From contig JAUWXV010000189.1 of the NCBI GenBank assembly GCA_030616165.1, positions 1-7,325 on the forward strand: a stretch of DNA of 7,325 nt, read 5' to 3'. Source of the DNA: a bacterium (GTDB taxonomy: Bacteria > SM23-31 > JAUVVT01). Of the stretch, positions 1-7,325 are shown piece by piece. The position numbers and the translations under genes are program-made. The notes beneath the pieces were generated by a model, which was given only the letters and a program-made list of their open reading frames with translations, searched no databases and had not been told where the DNA came from. Each line of letters begins with the position of its first letter. Position 1 is the stretch's first letter.

Positions 1-2
1 CT

Positions 3-1412
3 GCGAAATACCTTGGAGCATCTTATGCCGATATCCGAATTAACCGTTACAAATCTCAGTCGGTAGGTGCAGAAAATGACCGAAAGGGACGGGAACGGGT
101 AACCTCTTTGCGTGAATCAGAAGACTTTGGCTTTGGTGTTCGTGTGCTCTACGATGGAGCCTGGGGATTTTCATCCAGCAATGTGGTTACTAAAGAAGAA
201 GTGGAACGCATTTCGGCACGAGCAGTCCAGATTGCCAAAGAGAGTGCAATGGTAAAAGTAAATGATGTTATCCTTACACCTGAACCACCGCACGTAGACG
301 TTTGGCAGACACCGATAACAAAGGATCCATTTCTGATTTCAACAGAACAAAAAATTGATTTTCTCAACCGTATAAACAGCGAGGTTAAACGGACAAAAGG
401 GATAGAAAGTTCCTCTTCTAATATGGGTTTTTATCTTCAGGACAAGATTTTTGCAAGTACAGAAGGTTCATACATCCAGCAAAAACTTTATCGCTCCGGC
501 TGCGGTTACCAGGCTACAGCAGTTAAAGACGGCAAACGCGAAACCAGGAGAAATCCAGATTTACCTTTAGGGCGGGGGTATGAATATATAGAGGAGCGTC
601 CATTAATAGAAGAAGCACCGCGTGTGGCAGATGAAGCCATAATGAAACTCGATGCTGCCGAAGCTGAGCCCGGGAGAAAAACCCTGATTCTGGACCCCAC
701 GCACCTTTGTTTAACAATCCATGAGTCTGTCGGTCACCCGACAGAACTTGACCGTGCACTCGGCTGGGAAGCAAATTACGCAGGCAGGAGCTTTTGCACT
801 CCGGACAAATTGAATACTATGCAGTATGGCTCGGATATTGTGAATCTTTTTGCTGATAATACCCTTATTCACGGTCTGTCAACGTGCGGTTATGATGACG
901 AGGGAGTAAAAACTCAACGCTGGCATATTGTAAAAGACGGTATATTCGTTAGCTTTGGAACCAGCAGAGAAGTTGCTCATTTGATTGGTCTAAAACGGAG
1001 CAGAGGGTCCTGTTTTGCCTCAGGCTGGCGGTTTATGCCGATTAACCGAATACCCAACCTGAGTCTTATGCCAGGAACCTGGGAGTTAGACGACCTTTTC
1101 GCAGATACCAAAGATGGTATTTATATTGAAGGACGTGGAAACTACAGCATTGACCAACTCCGTTACAATTTCCAATTTGGTGGTGATATGTTCTGGGAAA
1201 TTAAGAACGGAAAAAAAGCACGGGCATTGAAAAATGTTCTTTATGGCGGGATTACAACAGAATTCTGGGGATCGTGCGATGCAATTTGTAATGAAAAATA
1301 CTGGCGTCCATTTGGCGTAACCAGTTGTGCCAAGGGACAGCCGGTTCAATCATACACTATGTCACATGGTTCAGCCCACGCGCGATTTCGAAACATAAAA
1401 GTAGGAGTTTAG
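3..1412 (+). CDS. tldD: TldD-family zinc metalloprotease subunit, 5' end cut by window
   Basis: This is the catalytic half of a TldD/TldE-type protease, a family that acts as a heterodimer threading unfolded peptides into a cavity and is known for microcin B17 leader removal and CcdA degradation. The frame is open from base 3, giving 469 visible residues, close to the usual length of about 480. A TTG at 108 is not the start, because the codons before it already encode a family-like N-terminus (GASYADIRI). The zinc motif HESVGH lies at visible residues 240-245 (bases 720-737) and runs on into PTELDR, a form typical of the non-enterobacterial subfamily. Cys442 (bases 1326-1328), in the last 31 residues, sits where the third zinc ligand of E. 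coli TldD lies. The stop is 2 bases before the next start, so the two genes are surely co-transcribed. Any N-terminal signal is off the window. The family call is firm; the substrate is unknown. Confidence 0.93.
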   Translation, partial: AKYLGASYADIRINRYKSQSVGAENDRKGRERVTSLRESEDFGFGVRVLYDGAWGFSSSNVVTKEEVERISARAVQIAKESAMVKVNDVILTPEPPHVDVWQTPITKDPFLISTEQKIDFLNRINSEVKRTKGIESSSSNMGFYLQDKIFASTEGSYIQQKLYRSGCGYQATAVKDGKRETRRNPDLPLGRGYEYIEERPLIEEAPRVADEAIMKLDAAEAEPGRKTLILDPTHLCLTIHESVGHPTELDRALGWEANYAGRSFCTPDKLNTMQYGSDIVNLFADNTLIHGLSTCGYDDEGVKTQRWHIVKDGIFVSFGTSREVAHLIGLKRSRGSCFASGWRFMPINRIPNLSLMPGTWELDDLFADTKDGIYIEGRGNYSIDQLRYNFQFGGDMFWEIKNGKKARALKNVLYGGITTEFWGSCDAICNEKYWRPFGVTSCAKGQPVQSYTMSHGSAHARFRNIKVGV

Positions 1413-1414
1413 TA

Positions 1415-2722
1415 ATGATATCTAAAACAGAAGCCAGGACGTTATTATACAAAGTACTGAGTTTTATCCCTGAAGGCGATGCAATTCTATCGCTTAATGA
1501 TACGCAATACGCTATGACCCGCTTTGGGAATAATTCAATCACGCAAAATCTTGAGCAATTTACAAATTCCGTAAACATTACTATATTCAAGAACAAAAAA
1601 CGAGGTTCAGCTTCAACGAACCAGTTTGATACAGTTTCACTTCAAGCAGCGGTTGACAGAGCAACAAAAATGTTACAATTCTCCCTCGAAAATCCCGATT
1701 ATTTACCTCCTGTTCCACCTCAAAAATATCAAGAGGTTAATTCCTATTTTGAGTCAACCGCAAACTTCAGTGCTGAAGAGAGAGCAAAAGGCGTATCTCA
1801 CATAATCAATGAATGCAAACGGAGAGGACTGACTGCAGCTGGAATTTTTACTACAACTGCTGGATGCTCTGCAATGATGAATACTACAGGATTATTTAAC
1901 TATCGAAAAAGCACAAAAGCCGAATACAGTGCCACTGTGTTAACAGAAGACAGCTCCGGTTGGGTTACCAAACCAGCATGGGATGTACGGGAAATCGATG
2001 CCGAAGTTCTCGGAATGCAGGCCATCGAAATTGCTGAAAGGGCACTGCATCCTCAAGAGTTCCCTCCCGGAAAATACACGGTGATTTTGCCTGCTTATGC
2101 TCTTGGATATATGCTGAATTCATTTACATCACCCGATTTGGAAAGTCTCGATGAGAATAGAGGCGTCTATCGGGACATGCAGAGAAAGCAGGTTTTCGGA
2201 GAAAATATCACGATATGCAGAGACCCATACCATCCTCTAATGCTTGGCTCTCCCTATGATTCGGATGGACTGCCTGTAAAAAAATTGACGCTGATTAAGA
2301 ACGGGAAAATCTCTGAGCCTCTCTGCCCCCGGGTCTACGCCGCAAAAAAAGGTGTGGAGCCTACGGGTGGGGGTGGCAGATCAGGCAGCCGAGTGATGCA
2401 CGGTGGTACAGAAACAATCGAGAGTATGATAAAAGCTACTGAGAGGGGAATATTAATAACACGGGTATGGTATCTTCGCGGAACCGACCGAATGAGAATG
2501 GCTTATACAGGAATGACCCGTGAAGGAACATTCCTGGTAGAAAACGGTGCAATCAAACACGGAGTGAGGAATTTTCGCTTTAATGAAAGTTTGTTTAACG
2601 TTTTAAACAACATTGACATGATGGGCAAACCCGAATTAACTGGCGGGATAGAAGTGCAAAATCAGGTTTTGCCCCCGGTAAGGGTAAAAGATTTCTATTT
2701 CTCATCAGTTACAAAATTTTAA
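1415..2722 (+). CDS. tldE: TldE/PmbA-like partner subunit, non-catalytic
   Basis: This 435-residue protein is the expected partner of the upstream TldD. The ATG at 1415 is chosen because GGAG at 1404-1407 lies 7 bases before it; the frame extends further upstream to 1325, but that part overlaps tldD and has no ribosome site. At the place of the TldD zinc helix (residues about 219-240) it has GKYTVILPAYALGYMLNSF, with no HExxxH, as in known TldE/PmbA proteins, which shape the cavity but do not bind zinc. The C-terminal family core is clear: a GTETIESM stretch near 331-338, ITRVWYLR at 348-355, and MTREGTFLVENG at 367-378 followed by VRNFRFNESL. No signal peptide is seen, so the protein should be cytosolic. 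The gap of 2 bases after tldD suggests translational coupling and equal subunit supply. Confidence 0.9.
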   Translation: MISKTEARTLLYKVLSFIPEGDAILSLNDTQYAMTRFGNNSITQNLEQFTNSVNITIFKNKKRGSASTNQFDTVSLQAAVDRATKMLQFSLENPDYLPPVPPQKYQEVNSYFESTANFSAEERAKGVSHIINECKRRGLTAAGIFTTTAGCSAMMNTTGLFNYRKSTKAEYSATVLTEDSSGWVTKPAWDVREIDAEVLGMQAIEIAERALHPQEFPPGKYTVILPAYALGYMLNSFTSPDLESLDENRGVYRDMQRKQVFGENITICRDPYHPLMLGSPYDSDGLPVKKLTLIKNGKISEPLCPRVYAAKKGVEPTGGGGRSGSRVMHGGTETIESMIKATERGILITRVWYLRGTDRMRMAYTGMTREGTFLVENGAIKHGVRNFRFNESLFNVLNNIDMMGKPELTGGIEVQNQVLPPVRVKDFYFSSVTKF

Positions 2723-2725
2723 AAT

Positions 2726-2754
2726 TTGACACATTTAGCATTACTCATTATATT
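2726..2754 (+). promoter_or_regulatory. Near-consensus sigma70-type promoter for the small Tat gene
   Basis: TTGACA (2726-2731) is followed by a 17-base spacer and TATATT (2749-2754), which matches the sigma70 consensus at 11 of 12 positions with ideal spacing. Transcription would begin near 2761 and leave a leader of about 22 bases before the ATG at 2783. The -35 box starts 3 bases after the tldE stop, so the small gene could be transcribed separately from, and more strongly than, tldD-tldE. If the host is a true Bacteroidota, whose main sigma factor prefers a different -7 box, the match would mean less. AT-rich DNA yields -10 boxes easily; the intact TTGACA at the right distance is the stronger part. 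Confidence 0.5.
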
Positions 2755-2782
2755 AGAAAGTAAATATTATTTGAGGTGTAAT

Positions 2783-3052
2783 ATGGCGGTAACTCGTCGA
2801 AAATTTTTAGCTACAGGGATAGCAATTGTAAGTACATCTTCTGCCGCTTTTGCTGGCATTCCTGAATTAAATTTATTAGGTAAATACACAAATAAATCGA
2901 TCCAGTTCAAAGAAAATGATTGGAATGACCTTCCGTTTCATGGTACACCATATCAATGTTCAGGATATCCTTATGAATTGCCCGAACTCGATGACAATAT
3001 TGCTCTGTCCGATTCTTATCTACACGACCCGGAAATTGAGAATAAGTGGTAA
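2783..3052 (+). CDS. Small Tat-exported protein next to tldD-tldE, candidate substrate
   Basis: I do not recognise a family. The 89-residue product starts at ATG 2783 with GAGG at 2773-2776, 6 bases upstream. The N-terminus TRRKFLATG (residues 4-12) fits the twin-arginine motif; a short hydrophobic stretch ends in AFA, giving a likely cleavage after Ala24. The mature part would be 65 residues, strongly acidic (12 Asp/Glu, 4 Lys), with one Cys (59), four Tyr, two Trp and several Pro, including the stretch YQCSGYPYELPELDD at 57-71. A longer TTG-start reading from 2726 is rejected because that TTG is the promoter -35 box. The gene follows the TldD/E pair by 60 bases in the same direction. Inference: it could be the peptide that TldD/E processes, or a small periplasmic protein whose maturation needs them. 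It could also be a truncated remnant of a larger Tat protein, though the DNA after its stop does not look coding. Confidence 0.75.
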   Translation: MAVTRRKFLATGIAIVSTSSAAFAGIPELNLLGKYTNKSIQFKENDWNDLPFHGTPYQCSGYPYELPELDDNIALSDSYLHDPEIENKW

Positions 3053-3464
3053 TTAATTCAAGGTCTTAATATTAGCATAGCTTGAAAGTATTCCAACAAA
3101 TTACAAGGAATGGTTGACTGATATTTTACTTAATTATATCACTTTTAACCCCCACTTACAATATTAAACATATAAATGCTTTGAAAAACCGACATAACAT
3201 ATTATATTTTATAAGTAATTGAGTTTGGTATTAATAAAGAACTGAGATAGTTTTCAAGTATGTTGTCCGTGGCCAATCACTGCCGGATATCTGGGGTTCA
3301 ACTACGTATAAAATCCTTAAAGTTGGCTTACATTGGAATTCATAAAATAGTATATATTTGATATCTCAATAAAATAAATTTATCAAAAGGTAGTATATAA
3401 TGATAATTGTTGAATTAAAAGGAAGATTGCAAAATATCAATAAAGGAAACAGTCTCTTTTTATT
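3053..3464. other. AT-rich intergenic gap without a convincing gene
   Basis: This 412-base stretch is very AT-rich. TTCAAG (3057-3062) and CTTGAA (3081-3086) could form a 6-base-pair hairpin just after the Tat gene, but no T-run follows, so it is not a convincing terminator. A 33-codon frame at 3260-3361 has no ribosome site and looks random. A segment around 3268-3310 is richer in GC than its surroundings and has no explanation. Possible promoter boxes are listed separately. The gap separates the TldD/E region from the exported-protein region. Confidence 0.6.
3181..3208 (+). promoter_or_regulatory. Possible promoter in the long gap
   Basis: TTGAAA (3181-3186), a 16-base spacer and TATATT (3203-3208) make a reasonable sigma70-like pair. 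It would drive the FGE-like lipoprotein gene through a leader of about 250 bases. Another weak candidate is TATATTTG at 3353-3360, which fits the Bacteroidota -7 pattern TAnnTTTG, but the nearest upstream TTG (3333-3335) is only 17 bases away, short of the usual spacing. In DNA this AT-rich such matches arise by chance. Confidence 0.22.
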
Positions 3465-3474
3465 ATGGTGCTGA
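3400..3474 (+). other. Short frame overlapping the start of the FGE-like gene
   Basis: A 24-codon frame begins at ATG 3400 with AAAAGG at 3385-3390, 9 bases upstream, the best ribosome site near here. Its stop codon TGA (3472-3474) lies inside the start of the FGE-like gene, which is in the -1 frame relative to it. It could be a leader peptide coupling translation to the next gene, or the true start of that gene disrupted by a one-base change in the T-run at 3457-3461. It may also be chance. There is no sequence family to support a separate product. Confidence 0.2.
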
Positions 3475-4388
3475 TTATTCTATTACTTTTTTTAAGTTGC
3501 AGTGAAAAAGAGTCACCAAAAACTAACGTTATTCATCAGACTCTTGTATCATCTTTCGAAGGTAGCAATGAAAAAGTGGAGGAACAGACAACAATTACTG
3601 TTGACCTTCCTGGTCTATCAAAAGACGCGAAGAAACTGGAGATGGTTCTGATTAAGTCCGGTACGTTCACTATGGGTTCACCGAAGGACGAACGTGGTCG
3701 TTCAGACCGTGAGTGGCTCCCGCACAAGGTAACAATTACCAAACCCTTCTATATGGGAAAGTATGAAGTAACACAAGCGCAGTGGGAAGCAGTTATGGGG
3801 AGAGAAAGTCATCGTTCAAAGTTCAGCGGGAGGCAAAACAATCCAGTGGAAAAGGTTTCCTGGCGTGCTTGTCAGAAGTTCATCAAGCAGTTGAACGCTC
3901 TCGGTGAGGGAACCTTCCGTTTACCTACAGAAGCTGAGTGGGAGTTTGCTTGCCGAGCAGGCACAGAAACACAGTTCTCTTTTGGTGATGTGTTGGAGTG
4001 TGAAGATATAGGAGAAGCATATTTTGAGATAGCAGATAAGTATATGTGGTGGTCAGGGAATAACAATCCGTATGGAACGAAAGAGGTAAGCATAAAGTTA
4101 CCAAATCCCTGGGGACTATATGACATGCATGGAAATGTGTCTGAGTGGTGTTCGGATTTGTGGGAAGCACCTTACGAACGAGGTCCTCAGATAGACCCTA
4201 AAGGTCCGTCTTCTGGTTGGCTTAGTAGGATATGGCCATTGACGAACCATGTCTTTCGTGGCGGAAGCATCTACTATGGTAGATACTTCCGTGGAGCATG
4301 TGAGTGTCGCTCAGCATCTCGCAATTATGAGCAGGCATTCGACTTCCATTACAGCTTGGGCTTCCGTCTTGTAAAGGAATATCCATGA
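3465..4388 (+). CDS. Lipoprotein with FGE/SUMF1-like (formylglycine-generating-enzyme-like) domain
   Basis: The 307-residue protein has a hydrophobic N-terminus ending in a lipobox-like LFLSC (residues 8-12), so it is probably a lipoprotein anchored at Cys12. The FGE-sulfatase domain covers about 59-303: MVLIKSGTFTMGS (60-72), MGKYEVTQAQWEAVMG (97-112), RLPTEAEWEFACRAG (152-166), GLYDMHGNVSEWC (217-229), FRGGS (264-268) and SLGFRLV (297-303). True formylglycine-generating enzymes have a Cys-x4-Cys pair after the GGS; here only Cys279 and Cys281 occur, spaced CxC, so copper-dependent sulfatase activation is unlikely. Many such lipoproteins have unknown binding or structural roles. The start is uncertain: ATG 3465 has no good ribosome site, and the in-frame codons just before it (RKQSLFI) look like the charged part of a signal peptide but have no ATG before a stop at 3441. 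No sulfatase gene is adjacent. Confidence 0.85.
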   Translation: MVLIILLLFLSCSEKESPKTNVIHQTLVSSFEGSNEKVEEQTTITVDLPGLSKDAKKLEMVLIKSGTFTMGSPKDERGRSDREWLPHKVTITKPFYMGKYEVTQAQWEAVMGRESHRSKFSGRQNNPVEKVSWRACQKFIKQLNALGEGTFRLPTEAEWEFACRAGTETQFSFGDVLECEDIGEAYFEIADKYMWWSGNNNPYGTKEVSIKLPNPWGLYDMHGNVSEWCSDLWEAPYERGPQIDPKGPSSGWLSRIWPLTNHVFRGGSIYYGRYFRGACECRSASRNYEQAFDFHYSLGFRLVKEYP

Positions 4389-4418
4389 TATACTCGAATA
4401 ATTGAAAAGGGAAAATAA

Positions 4419-4451
4419 TCGAGTTATGGCCTAACATGCCAATCAACTCGA
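4419..4451. repeat. Perfect 7-base inverted repeat with inner stem
   Basis: TCGAGTT (4419-4425) is the exact reverse complement of AACTCGA (4445-4451). Inside them TGGC (4427-4430) can pair with GCCA (4438-4441), giving an 11-base-pair hairpin with a small internal bulge. A third related copy, ACTCGA (4392-4397), can also pair with TCGAGT (4419-4424). No T-run follows, so it is not an intrinsic terminator. The hairpin overlaps the left end of the attC-like site and would compete with that fold; it may be part of 3' end protection for the upstream mRNA. Confidence 0.35.
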
Positions 4452-4563
4452 CCGCTAACAGCATGTTGCTTTTGAATGTCAGGAGTGGGTAAGTAAGTTT
4501 TGTTGTAATTTTATGTTTGGTGATTTAAGTATTTGGCGCTGTTTAAGTCGGTGGTCGTTAGGT
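4429..4563 (+). other. attC-like site between the FGE-like and VOC genes
   Basis: The left end GCCTAAC (4429-4435) fits the integron R'' box RYYYAAC, and the right end GTTAGGT (4557-4563) fits the R' box GTTRRRY; six of the seven bases can pair across the site. Further in, CGAC (4449-4452) pairs with GTCG (4547-4550) and ACAGC (4459-4462 with the preceding A) pairs with GCTGT (4539-4542 plus following T), as in the imperfect dyad of attC sites. The length of 135 bases is within the known range. It starts 40 bases after the FGE-like stop and ends 24 bases before the VOC start, as between gene cassettes. Against it: the inner spacers are unequal (13 and 6 bases) and no integrase is in the window. 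Confidence 0.42.
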
Positions 4564-4587
4564 AGTCAATTATAAGTGAAATAAAAT

Positions 4588-5526
4588 ATGAAGAATCGTA
4601 TAATCCTAATTCTTTTTTTACTGTCAACTTTCTTTTTATTAAAATGCGTTAAAAATGAAAAAATTCTCTTAGAGAATAATTTGCAGGGCGTCCAACACCT
4701 TGGTATTCCAGTACATGATATTGAACAGTCCAAGGCTTGGTATACAGAAAAACTTGGCTTTAGCGTGGTGCATGAGCCAACGGTTCCTACCGAGGAAGGG
4801 AACATTAAGGTGGCATTTTTGAAAAAAAGTGATATGACACTCGAACTATATCAATTGGTTGGCGAATCTCTCAATGAAATAAAAACCCGTGGTCATGGGC
4901 ACATCGATCATTTTGCAATCGATGTTCTCGATATTGATAAGGCATTAAAAGACGTTTTGGATGCAGGCGCAGTTCTCGATGAATCTACTCCTGATGAGCC
5001 TAAAACCATAGATGTCTTCTGGTCAAAAGGAGTAAAATACATAACAATAAAAGGGACAATTGGTGAAAAAGTTGAGTTAAACCAACGGTTGGATTTGGAT
5101 AAATCTCGCCGTAAAGAAAATTTAAGCGGATGGTCTCATCTTGGAATTCCAGTAACTGACCTTAAAAAATCAAAAAATTTTTATCATCAATTCGGTTTCA
5201 AAGAAATCATGTATGCGGAGATTCCAACAGGTAATGAATCGATCAAAGCATCAATGATGGAAAAGGATGGATTTGTAATTGAACTGTATCAAATGTTTGG
5301 AGAGAGTCTGGCAGAGATTTCAATAAGAAAAGACGGACACATTGATCACATCGCTCTGGATGTCATCGATATCGATAAGGCATATCAAGAACTTCAGGAA
5401 GCAGATTTTGAAATTTTAGAAGATGCCCCTGTATACTTAGACTTTTGGGATAACGGTGTAAAGTATTTTAATATTCGGGGTCCTGACGGAGAGAAACTTG
5501 AATTTAATGAAAAGATTAATCCCTAA
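4588..5526 (+). CDS. Exported protein with two tandem VOC (glyoxalase-fold) domains
   Basis: The 312-residue product begins with a signal-like stretch (residues 1-20) ending in FFLLKC; Lys before Cys20 is unusual for a lipobox, so lipid attachment is possible but not certain. Two VOC domains follow, about 32-167 and 181-309. Each keeps all four metal ligands placed as in glyoxalase I: His37, Glu86, His108, Glu163, and His184, Glu232, His254, Glu305. The halves resemble each other closely (HLGIPV, ELYQ, GHIDH and DIDKA recur about 142-147 residues apart), which points to an internal duplication. VOC enzymes include glyoxalase, dioxygenases, epimerases and resistance proteins; the substrate cannot be read from sequence. 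Export is unusual for this fold, which is mostly cytosolic. The ATG at 4588 has only a weak ribosome site. The gene lies between two attC-like sites. Confidence 0.87.
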   Translation: MKNRIILILFLLSTFFLLKCVKNEKILLENNLQGVQHLGIPVHDIEQSKAWYTEKLGFSVVHEPTVPTEEGNIKVAFLKKSDMTLELYQLVGESLNEIKTRGHGHIDHFAIDVLDIDKALKDVLDAGAVLDESTPDEPKTIDVFWSKGVKYITIKGTIGEKVELNQRLDLDKSRRKENLSGWSHLGIPVTDLKKSKNFYHQFGFKEIMYAEIPTGNESIKASMMEKDGFVIELYQMFGESLAEISIRKDGHIDHIALDVIDIDKAYQELQEADFEILEDAPVYLDFWDNGVKYFNIRGPDGEKLEFNEKINP

Positions 5527-5794
5527 GAATATTTTAATTAACCTTACATAAGAACAGGCTGTGTAAAGGATTAAAATTGAAATATATGTAAATCCATTTA
5601 AATTTCTTAATATCGATAAATTGCCTTACAAGGGATTCAAGCAGACAAAAGGGCAGTGTTTCAAATTAGTTTCAGTTTGGTGTATTCACAAAAGCTTAGA
5701 TAAATTTCCAACGTTCTGTGTATGTAAGTCCTTTGGCAGCTTATGCCCAGGTCGTTATAACTGTTTAATATTACTTCTATTCATGGAGAAAATA
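5527..5794. other. Intergenic gap between VOC and propeller genes
   Basis: The first 95 bases are AT-rich with no clear promoter, terminator or gene. The remainder is taken up by an attC-like inverted repeat and a 34-base leader before the propeller gene. The reading frame of the propeller gene stays open through the repeat back to 5621, but only TTG is available there as a start, and the encoded stretch is Cys-rich and unlike an N-terminus of this family. Confidence 0.55.
5623..5760 (+). other. Second attC-like inverted repeat
   Basis: The left end GCCTTAC (5623-5629) differs from the integron R'' box RYYYAAC at one position, though left ends of this form (RYYTTAC) are familiar from marine gammaproteobacterial integrons. 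The right end is GGTCGTTATAA (5750-5760), sharing GGTCGTTA with the right end of the first site. Inner arms pair imperfectly: AAGCAGACAAAAGG (5639-5652) against CCTTTGGCAGCTT (5730-5742), with one bulge and two mismatches. Length is about 138 bases, and the next start codon is 34 bases away. The site lies in the same orientation as the first one. The R' box is a poor match (GTTATAA), so it may be a decayed site or chance. Confidence 0.33.
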
Positions 5795-7027
5795 ATGAAG
5801 AAAATAATTTCTTTAGGCTCAATATTTTTATTATTTATCCCTCTTTACAATTGTTTCGCGGAAATAAATATGGTTGGCATTTTATACAGGATTGATTTTA
5901 CTAAAGGGTGTGTACGCACCGTCGTGGGAATCACCAATACATGCCTGTGTTTACTTCTATATACCTTCGGATTTCAGAGTAACCCGGGCGAGTTTAAGGG
6001 CATAGTTCAACTCAATGCGAGCGATGGGACGTATCGAATAACGGGCGGCGGTAAAAACATCTTTGGGAATACTGATAAATTTTATTATGTTTGGAATCGA
6101 GTTGATGGAGAGTTAACCCTGAAGGAAACACCCGTCTTTTCTAACGTTAACTTTGAAACATTCGGAGTCATCGCTCAGGAAGAGCGTGTGCTGGAAAGCA
6201 CCTTGGAAATTATAGATGTCGAAACTGGAGAACGAAGAATAGTTCATCGCGCAAAAGAGCACTTCGAGGCTCCCAACTGGTCCCGGGATGGAAAAACGTT
6301 AATCTATAACAGCAAAGGCAGTCTTTATACCATACCTGTAACTGGAGGACAACCAAGGCTATTGAATACAGGATTCGCTAATCGCTGCAACAACGACCAC
6401 GGCTTATCACCGGATGGGAAACAACTTGCTATCAGTCATGCGCCAGAAAAACAGTCATTGATTTATATATTACCGAGTAGTGGAGGGGAACCCCGTCTTA
6501 TTACAGAACTTGGTCCCTCCTACTGGCACGGCTGGTCCCCAGATGGCAAAACTCTTGTTTACTGTGCATCACGTAACGGTGAGTTTGACATCTACAGAAT
6601 CCCAGTGCAGGGGGGAAAAGAAAAACGTCTTACCTATGCTAAAGGACTGGATGATGGCCCAGATTACTCCCCCGATGGGAAATTCATCTTCTTTAACTCA
6701 GTTAGAACCGGACAGATGAAAATCTGGAGAATGAAAACAGATGGCAGCGAACAAGTGCAGATGACACTTAATGATAATTACAACGATTGGTTTCCACACC
6801 CCTCACCAGACGGAAAATGGCTGGTATTTATCTCTTATGATAAAAGTGTCCAAGGACATCCACCTAATAAAAATGTAGTTTTACGAATCATGCCCATGTC
6901 CGGCGGTGAACCGAGAGTGTTGACAAGTCTCTTTGGTGGTCAAGGCACTATTAATGTGCCTTCGTGGTCTCCTGATAGTAAATGGGTTGCGTTCGTTAGT
7001 TATCGGCTCGTTGCACCGTATAAGTGA
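5795..7027 (+). CDS. Secreted TolB-like six-bladed propeller with shortened N-terminal sandwich domain
   Basis: The ATG at 5795 is chosen because GGAG (5785-5788) lies 6 bases upstream and a signal peptide follows at once (residues 1-22, cleavage after CFA); ATG 5783 in the same frame is an alternative. The 410-residue product carries six PD40-type repeats with SPDGK-like turns at about 159-173, 201-215, 244-258, 288-302, 333-347 and 388-402, forming a TolB-like beta-propeller that probably acts in the periplasm or outside. Relatives I recall have a complete beta-sandwich domain of the DUF1349 type before the propeller. Here only its beginning (about 76-102, [15 protein letters not shown] and [13 protein letters not shown]) and its end (PVFSNV, 113-118) remain, joined directly, so roughly 90 residues seem missing in frame. 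Residues 26-58 are hydrophobic, Cys-rich and unlike the family. Function is unknown; no tol-pal genes are near, so it is not classical TolB. Confidence 0.85.
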
Positions 7028-7072
7028 CTTTGAGCCACATATGTTTCTCATTGTGTGGATTTGACCTGCGCT

Positions 7073-7100
7073 GCACCCGACTGTGGGTGTTTTGGTTTTT
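7073..7100 (+). terminator. Likely intrinsic terminator after the propeller gene
   Basis: GCACCC (7073-7078) pairs with GGGTGT (7085-7090), five Watson-Crick pairs and one G-T, around the six-base loop GACTGT. It is followed by TTTT-like and TTTTT runs interrupted by GG (7090-7100). The position, 46 bases after the propeller stop and before the next gene, fits transcription end. GTTTTG (7089-7094) and CAAAAC (7101-7106) could form an alternative hairpin. The interrupted T-run makes it less than ideal. Confidence 0.5.
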
Positions 7101-7190
7101 CAAAACTTGGTATTCCGTGCGTAAATTATGCTAATTCAAACACTCTACGCTAAACATACAGACGATTCCTTTAAAATTAATTGGAGGACA

Positions 7191-7325
7191 ATGAGTTTAA
7201 GAAAGGCGACATTATCAGCAATAATTGGTATTTCTTATACTTTTATTTTAAGAACTATAGGGACTTTATTACCTGATATTTTCAAAAATCTTTTAGTAGT
7301 ACAAGTTTCCGCAATAATGTCTTTT
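7191..7325 (+). CDS. Membrane protein, N-terminal part, cut by window end
   Basis: An open frame of 45 codons runs to the last base. The ATG at 7191 is supported by GGAGG at 7183-7187, 3 bases before it, the strongest ribosome site in the window although closely spaced. The product starts MSLRKATLSA, with two Arg/Lys before a hydrophobic segment (about 8-27), then a short polar turn PDIFKN (28-33) and a second hydrophobic segment (34-45 and beyond), as in a multi-pass inner-membrane protein with few positive charges outside. I do not recognise the family from this fragment. It is separated from the propeller gene by a likely terminator, so it probably begins a new transcription unit. Confidence 0.65.
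   Translation, partial: MSLRKATLSAIIGISYTFILRTIGTLLPDIFKNLLVVQVSAIMSF

Follow-up and report, generated by a model that had tools for sequence, protein, structure and literature searches.

The TldD/TldE of E. coli is an M103 heterodimeric metallopeptidase that is involved in the maturation of microcin B17. It truncates unfolded peptides from the N-terminus, and the third ligand of its metal is Cys454 of TldD (PMC5810440). The enzyme pair is known as a peptide sharpener and has been studied inside the cell; the data that we present here argue that a large, widespread branch of TldD/TldE is exported, with its metal ligand changed, and that a tiny protein encoded separately can supply the export signal, swapping with a fused signal in evolution. 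The E. coli enzyme is not known to be accompanied by such a small partner with a twin-arginine (Tat) signal.

The export of folded, signal-less proteins by a signal-bearing partner, i.e. Tat hitchhiking, has been described for the HybO/HybC hydrogenase, for PaoABC, where PaoA brings PaoB/C through Tat, and for the Streptomyces MelC1/MelC2 tyrosinase, where MelC1 is a trans-activator that mediates the secretion of the tyrosinase (PMC4273604). MelC1/MelC2 is the nearest mechanistic parallel to the escort that we propose below. The cargo of these three systems, which are unrelated in sequence to the proteins discussed here, is a redox or copper enzyme, whereas the proposed cargo is a zinc peptidase pair; also unlike these systems, fused and separate signals alternate within one clade of TldD/TldE. 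Closer to the locus presented here is a related subfamily of TldDs with a fused Tat signal, from Acidobacteriota, Bacteroidota, Ignavibacteria and others, where TldE is likewise signal-less; it differs from our locus in that the signal is located on TldD, the metal ligand is mostly Asp instead of Cys, and there is no separate gene for a small Tat protein.

The tldD-tldE pair and the small Tat-signal gene

The stretch of DNA analysed here (the window) is one entire contig of 7,325 bases (positions 1-7325), from an assembly that is fragmented into 343 contigs; its features are listed in Table 1. As the window is the whole contig, the N-terminus of its TldD, where a signal peptide would be located, is missing, and no overlap of this contig with another contig was found; the window TldD, cut by the contig start, might carry a signal of its own.

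The two first genes of the window form a TldD/TldE metallopeptidase pair: the HExxxH motif and the Cys ligand are present in TldD and absent from TldE, Pfam PmbA_TldD domains occur in both proteins, and the genes are adjacent, with a gap of 2 bases. The pair has its fold families, the HExxxH motif with the Cys ligand and the PmbA_TldD domains in common with E. coli TldD/TldE, but it belongs to a divergent subfamily (below the NCBIfam equivalog cut-offs), with adjacent genes and a small Tat protein alongside. The sequence-only reading of this DNA had described such a closely spaced pair followed by an 89-residue twin-arginine gene, and the coordinates, the Pfam domains and the codon log-odds bear this description out.

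Table 1. Features of the window, with their positions and strands.
Feature	Position	Strand	Remarks
tldD	3..1412	+	truncated 5' at the contig start; 469 codons remain
Catalytic HExxxH of the window TldD	local residues 240-245		HESVGH
Cys metal ligand of the window TldD	local residue 442		SCAKGQP; aligned with Cys454 of E. coli TldD (PMC5810440)
tldE/pmbA-like partner	1415..2722	+	without HExxxH and without signal peptide
Promoter-like site TTGACA-17-TATATT	2726..2754	+	between tldE and the small gene; consensus match alone, 11/12
Shine-Dalgarno-like GAGGTG	2773..2778	+	4 nt 5' of the small-gene ATG
Small Tat-signal protein gene	2783..3052	+	89 aa; SP candidate (proposed Tat carrier for TldD/E)
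Tat signal peptide MAVTRRKFLATGIAIVSTSSAAFA	2783..2854	+	putative cleavage between AFA and G
Motif HGTPY	2939..2953	+	residue 53 of the window protein; common to the SP family as [HQYW]GxP[YFH]
Lipoprotein-like, FGE/sulfatase-modifying-factor domain (PF03781)	3465-4388		412 bases 3' of the small gene
Tandem glyoxalase-domain lipoprotein	4588-5526	same strand	
PD40 beta-propeller protein	5621-7027	same strand	follows the glyoxalase-domain lipoprotein

The signal of the small protein, as judged by eye, is 24 aa long and consists of TRRKFLA, a hydrophobic core and the end AFA before the G at which the mature part would start; TatC is encoded in the window genome. The mature part of 65 aa is acidic, as had been noticed from the sequence, with 12 D/E against 4 K/R and a pI of 4.27, and its fold is predicted without confidence by AlphaFold (pLDDT 49 for the small protein). 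Among the six frames, frame +0 alone is positive in codon log-odds (0.121, compared with -0.06 to -0.33), and this codon usage, together with the Shine-Dalgarno-like site, supports that the gene is real. The gene was also considered as a truncated form of a longer one, which we have rejected: the downstream frames are stop-rich and, by eye, do not contain the C-terminal box that is described in the next section.

A search for homologues of the 89-residue protein, as the sequence-only reading had proposed, returned nothing beyond chance from genome collections and family databases; this holds for its own genome, for 60 genomes drawn as relatives and for 84,980 species genomes, as well as for viral contigs, Pfam, NCBIfam, PHROGs and the PDB, where the hits on a designed TIM barrel were short and were put down to chance. 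The CxPxR sulfatase motif is not present in the small protein. No RiPP modifying enzyme, as would be expected beside a RiPP precursor with its leader-core architecture, was found within the 7.3 kb of the contig, whose remaining genes encode only the FGE-like, glyoxalase and PD40 proteins.

Small Tat proteins and fused Tat signals in the TldD clade

Small Tat proteins that are located beside tldD-tldE have been reached through the relatives of TldD; this TldD subfamily is common in many phyla. Two acidobacterial TldDs (L125 and L142), signal-less and nested among TldDs with a fused Tat signal, are each immediately preceded by a distinct gene for a small Tat-signal protein; in the 137 loci that were scanned around tldD, a convincing small Tat ORF beside tldD is found only at these two, and both belong to the family that we refer to as SP. 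Profiles built from two, then four members and run over the genomes of the same phylum (Acidobacteriota) have found further full-length members solely beside tldD-tldE (G382, G594, G338, G312, G325 and G741), plus the partial G688, and a TldD-first search of this phylum has added G421. The SP family, which is well supported as an entity, thus has ten members of 80-96 aa with a Tat signal; their genes are located directly upstream of tldD-tldE in 10/10 cases; 4 of them share 2-4 bases with tldD, and the others are 10-86 bases away. The motif [HQYW]GxP[YFH] is common to the members (it falls in a region outside the partial G688), a C-terminal hFxM...RD box is present in most of them, and the mature part is variable around a conserved core. 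All other matches of the SP profile were only the Tat signals of large proteins, also when the window protein was added to the profile; a search of 386 diverse genomes from the window's domain with a profile of the mature part yielded no member, and the small ORFs with a signal that lie next to tldDE at other loci (up to L168) proved to be other lipoproteins or spurious reading frames.

The sequence-only reading had suggested that small Tat proteins might recur next to tldD-tldE, and had held that finding their homologues mostly elsewhere would speak against it; the SP genes are all beside the pair, and the recurrence stands in the form of a ten-member family in related operons, but the window protein itself is without a close homologue, and what links it to the family is one short motif together with a low profile score. 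Neither the SP family nor the exported TldD branch seems to be described in the literature that we have searched, and both may be known elsewhere: no paper there was found to report a Tat signal on TldD, and “TldD” occurs together with “twin-arginine” only in passing, in a hot-spring survey.

In many relatives of TldD, the Tat signal is fused to TldD (e.g. at L058, L095 and L126), and the TldE of these operons never has a signal, which in itself implies hitchhiking in them. All SP rows fall within one TldD clade of 93 rows: 75 with a fused Tat signal, 10 with SP, 7 with neither and 1 that ends at a contig edge. No row of the clade has both SP and a fused signal, and 75/92 rows other than the contig-edge row have the fused signal; outside the clade, the fused signal is found in 3/110 rows and SP in 0/110. 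The Fisher value for the exclusion is 8e-8, for rows found TldD-first and with relatedness ignored, while a test on independent branches, in which about 2 pairs are informative and all agree with the expectation, has no power. This mutual exclusion of the separate and the fused signal suggests that the small protein targets the enzyme and is not its substrate. The SP rows lie dispersed among the fused-Tat rows (4-6 changes), as if one solution had replaced the other; the node of the TldD tree that unites all SP rows is weakly supported (0.54), and the TldD+TldE tree groups SP with the fused-Tat rows (99/97).

Of the 7 rows with neither SP nor a signal, L271 and L307 represent the second TldD copies of G312 and G325, two genomes that also have an SP operon, and SP might serve both copies there. 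Outside the main Tat clade, a fused Tat signal on TldD with the Cys ligand kept is seen in L121 and L164 (Planctomycetota) and in L132 (Cyanaurora); these signals are probably independent gains.

The metal ligand has changed from Cys to Asp in 72/75 of the in-clade fused-Tat TldDs; it is Cys in all rows outside the clade, and Asp in 0/107 of the outside rows without a signal. The TldDs associated with SP have Asp in 4 cases and Cys in the other 6/10, as does the window TldD; through their Asp ligand, the four resemble exported enzymes without a fused signal. A non-oxidisable ligand would suit life outside the cytoplasm, and the fused-Tat TldD clade, with its Asp ligand and its signal-less TldE, is presumably a periplasmic branch of TldD/TldE.

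Comparison of the window protein with the SP family

The window protein shares with the SP family the Tat signal, the size range and the motif of the mature part; its HGTPY would occur by chance in 0.3-0.8% of cases and is located at a distance from the signal like that in the family. Its score against the profile of the SP mature part is 3.6 bits, compared with 16-52 bits for true members that were left out, and 27/5000 shuffles score as well; the C-terminal hFxM...RD box is absent, and the gene order is different, as the small gene follows tldD-tldE in the window but SP precedes tldD, the stretch upstream of the window tldD being off the contig. The highest identities of both the window TldD (53-55%) and the window TldE (37-38%) are with SP operons; in the best tree, the window TldD is placed immediately outside the Tat/SP clade, although its membership of the clade is not rejected (AU p 0.07). 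The overall similarity between the sequences of the window protein and SP is only suggestive, and we regard the membership of the window protein in the SP family as an evenly balanced proposition, perhaps slightly favoured.

Proposed escort role of the small protein and its alternatives

We consider that SP and the window small protein may well be a separate Tat carrier that exports TldD/TldE by hitchhiking, and not a substrate that is trimmed before export, a reading whose chances we put just below even. The mature part of the small protein, around HGxPY, would bind the folded, signal-less TldD-TldE heterodimer in the cytoplasm, the Tat translocase would move the complex of the three proteins across the membrane, and the exported enzyme would act on unfolded peptides in the periplasm; in the sister lineages, a fused Tat signal at the start of TldD would perform the same task, with TldE as the hitchhiker. 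The window protein would then have the role of the SP family. The wider view, that an entire branch of TldD/TldE acts outside the cytoplasm, partly by means of undescribed small, split-off Tat-signal escorts with the window protein as a diverged member, is one that we hold tentatively. Against the escort we have counted the in-clade TldDs that have neither signal nor SP, the Cys ligand of the window TldD, as in cytoplasmic TldDs, the weak SP score of the window protein, the position of its gene after tldE, the intervening promoter-like site, and the branching of the window TldD outside the clade. As an escorted enzyme, TldD/TldE with SP would offer a simple system for tests of Tat hitchhiking, and the search for the substrates of these peptidases would be directed to the periplasm.

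It is rather unlikely that the window small gene is an unrelated orphan that encodes a secretory protein, is driven by its own promoter and merely happens to lie 3' of tldE, the SP family elsewhere being a separate matter. Such an origin would agree with the lack of homologues in 85k genomes, Pfam, NCBIfam and PHROGs, with the 11/12 promoter-like match immediately 5' of the gene, and with the weak profile score and the different gene position; it would leave to coincidence that the window repeats the odd combination of the SP loci, i.e. a small Tat protein beside tldDE with HGxPY similarly spaced from the signal, that its TldD and TldE are most like those of SP operons, and that the scan of 137 loci found such ORFs convincing at two SP loci only.

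The sequence-only reading had taken the small protein for a substrate that is cut or trimmed before Tat export. More broadly, it could be a peptide that Tat exports and that TldD/TldE trims in its N-terminal part, either in the periplasm after the removal of the signal or in the cytoplasm before export; we find this unlikely. TldD/TldE does mature small peptides (PMC5810440, PMC10885120), and the mature part is small, lacks a confidently predicted fold and is encoded together with the protease, while that of SP varies around its conserved core. The enzyme, however, shortens peptides from the N-terminus (PMC5810440), so that trimming ahead of export would cost the protein its Tat signal, and a substrate role does not predict the absence of SP wherever TldD owns a Tat signal (SP in 0/75 of these rows); for these two reasons a substrate role is less likely, and cleavage before export is not favoured. 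A modifying enzyme is also not encoded nearby.

Finally, SP is quite improbable as a third structural or regulatory subunit of a periplasmic TldD/TldE (e.g. a pore cover) that brings the Tat signal incidentally: a core (HGxP[YF], hFxM...RD) that is conserved beyond the signal in most members does suggest more than a signal carrier, but the fused-Tat relatives manage without SP.
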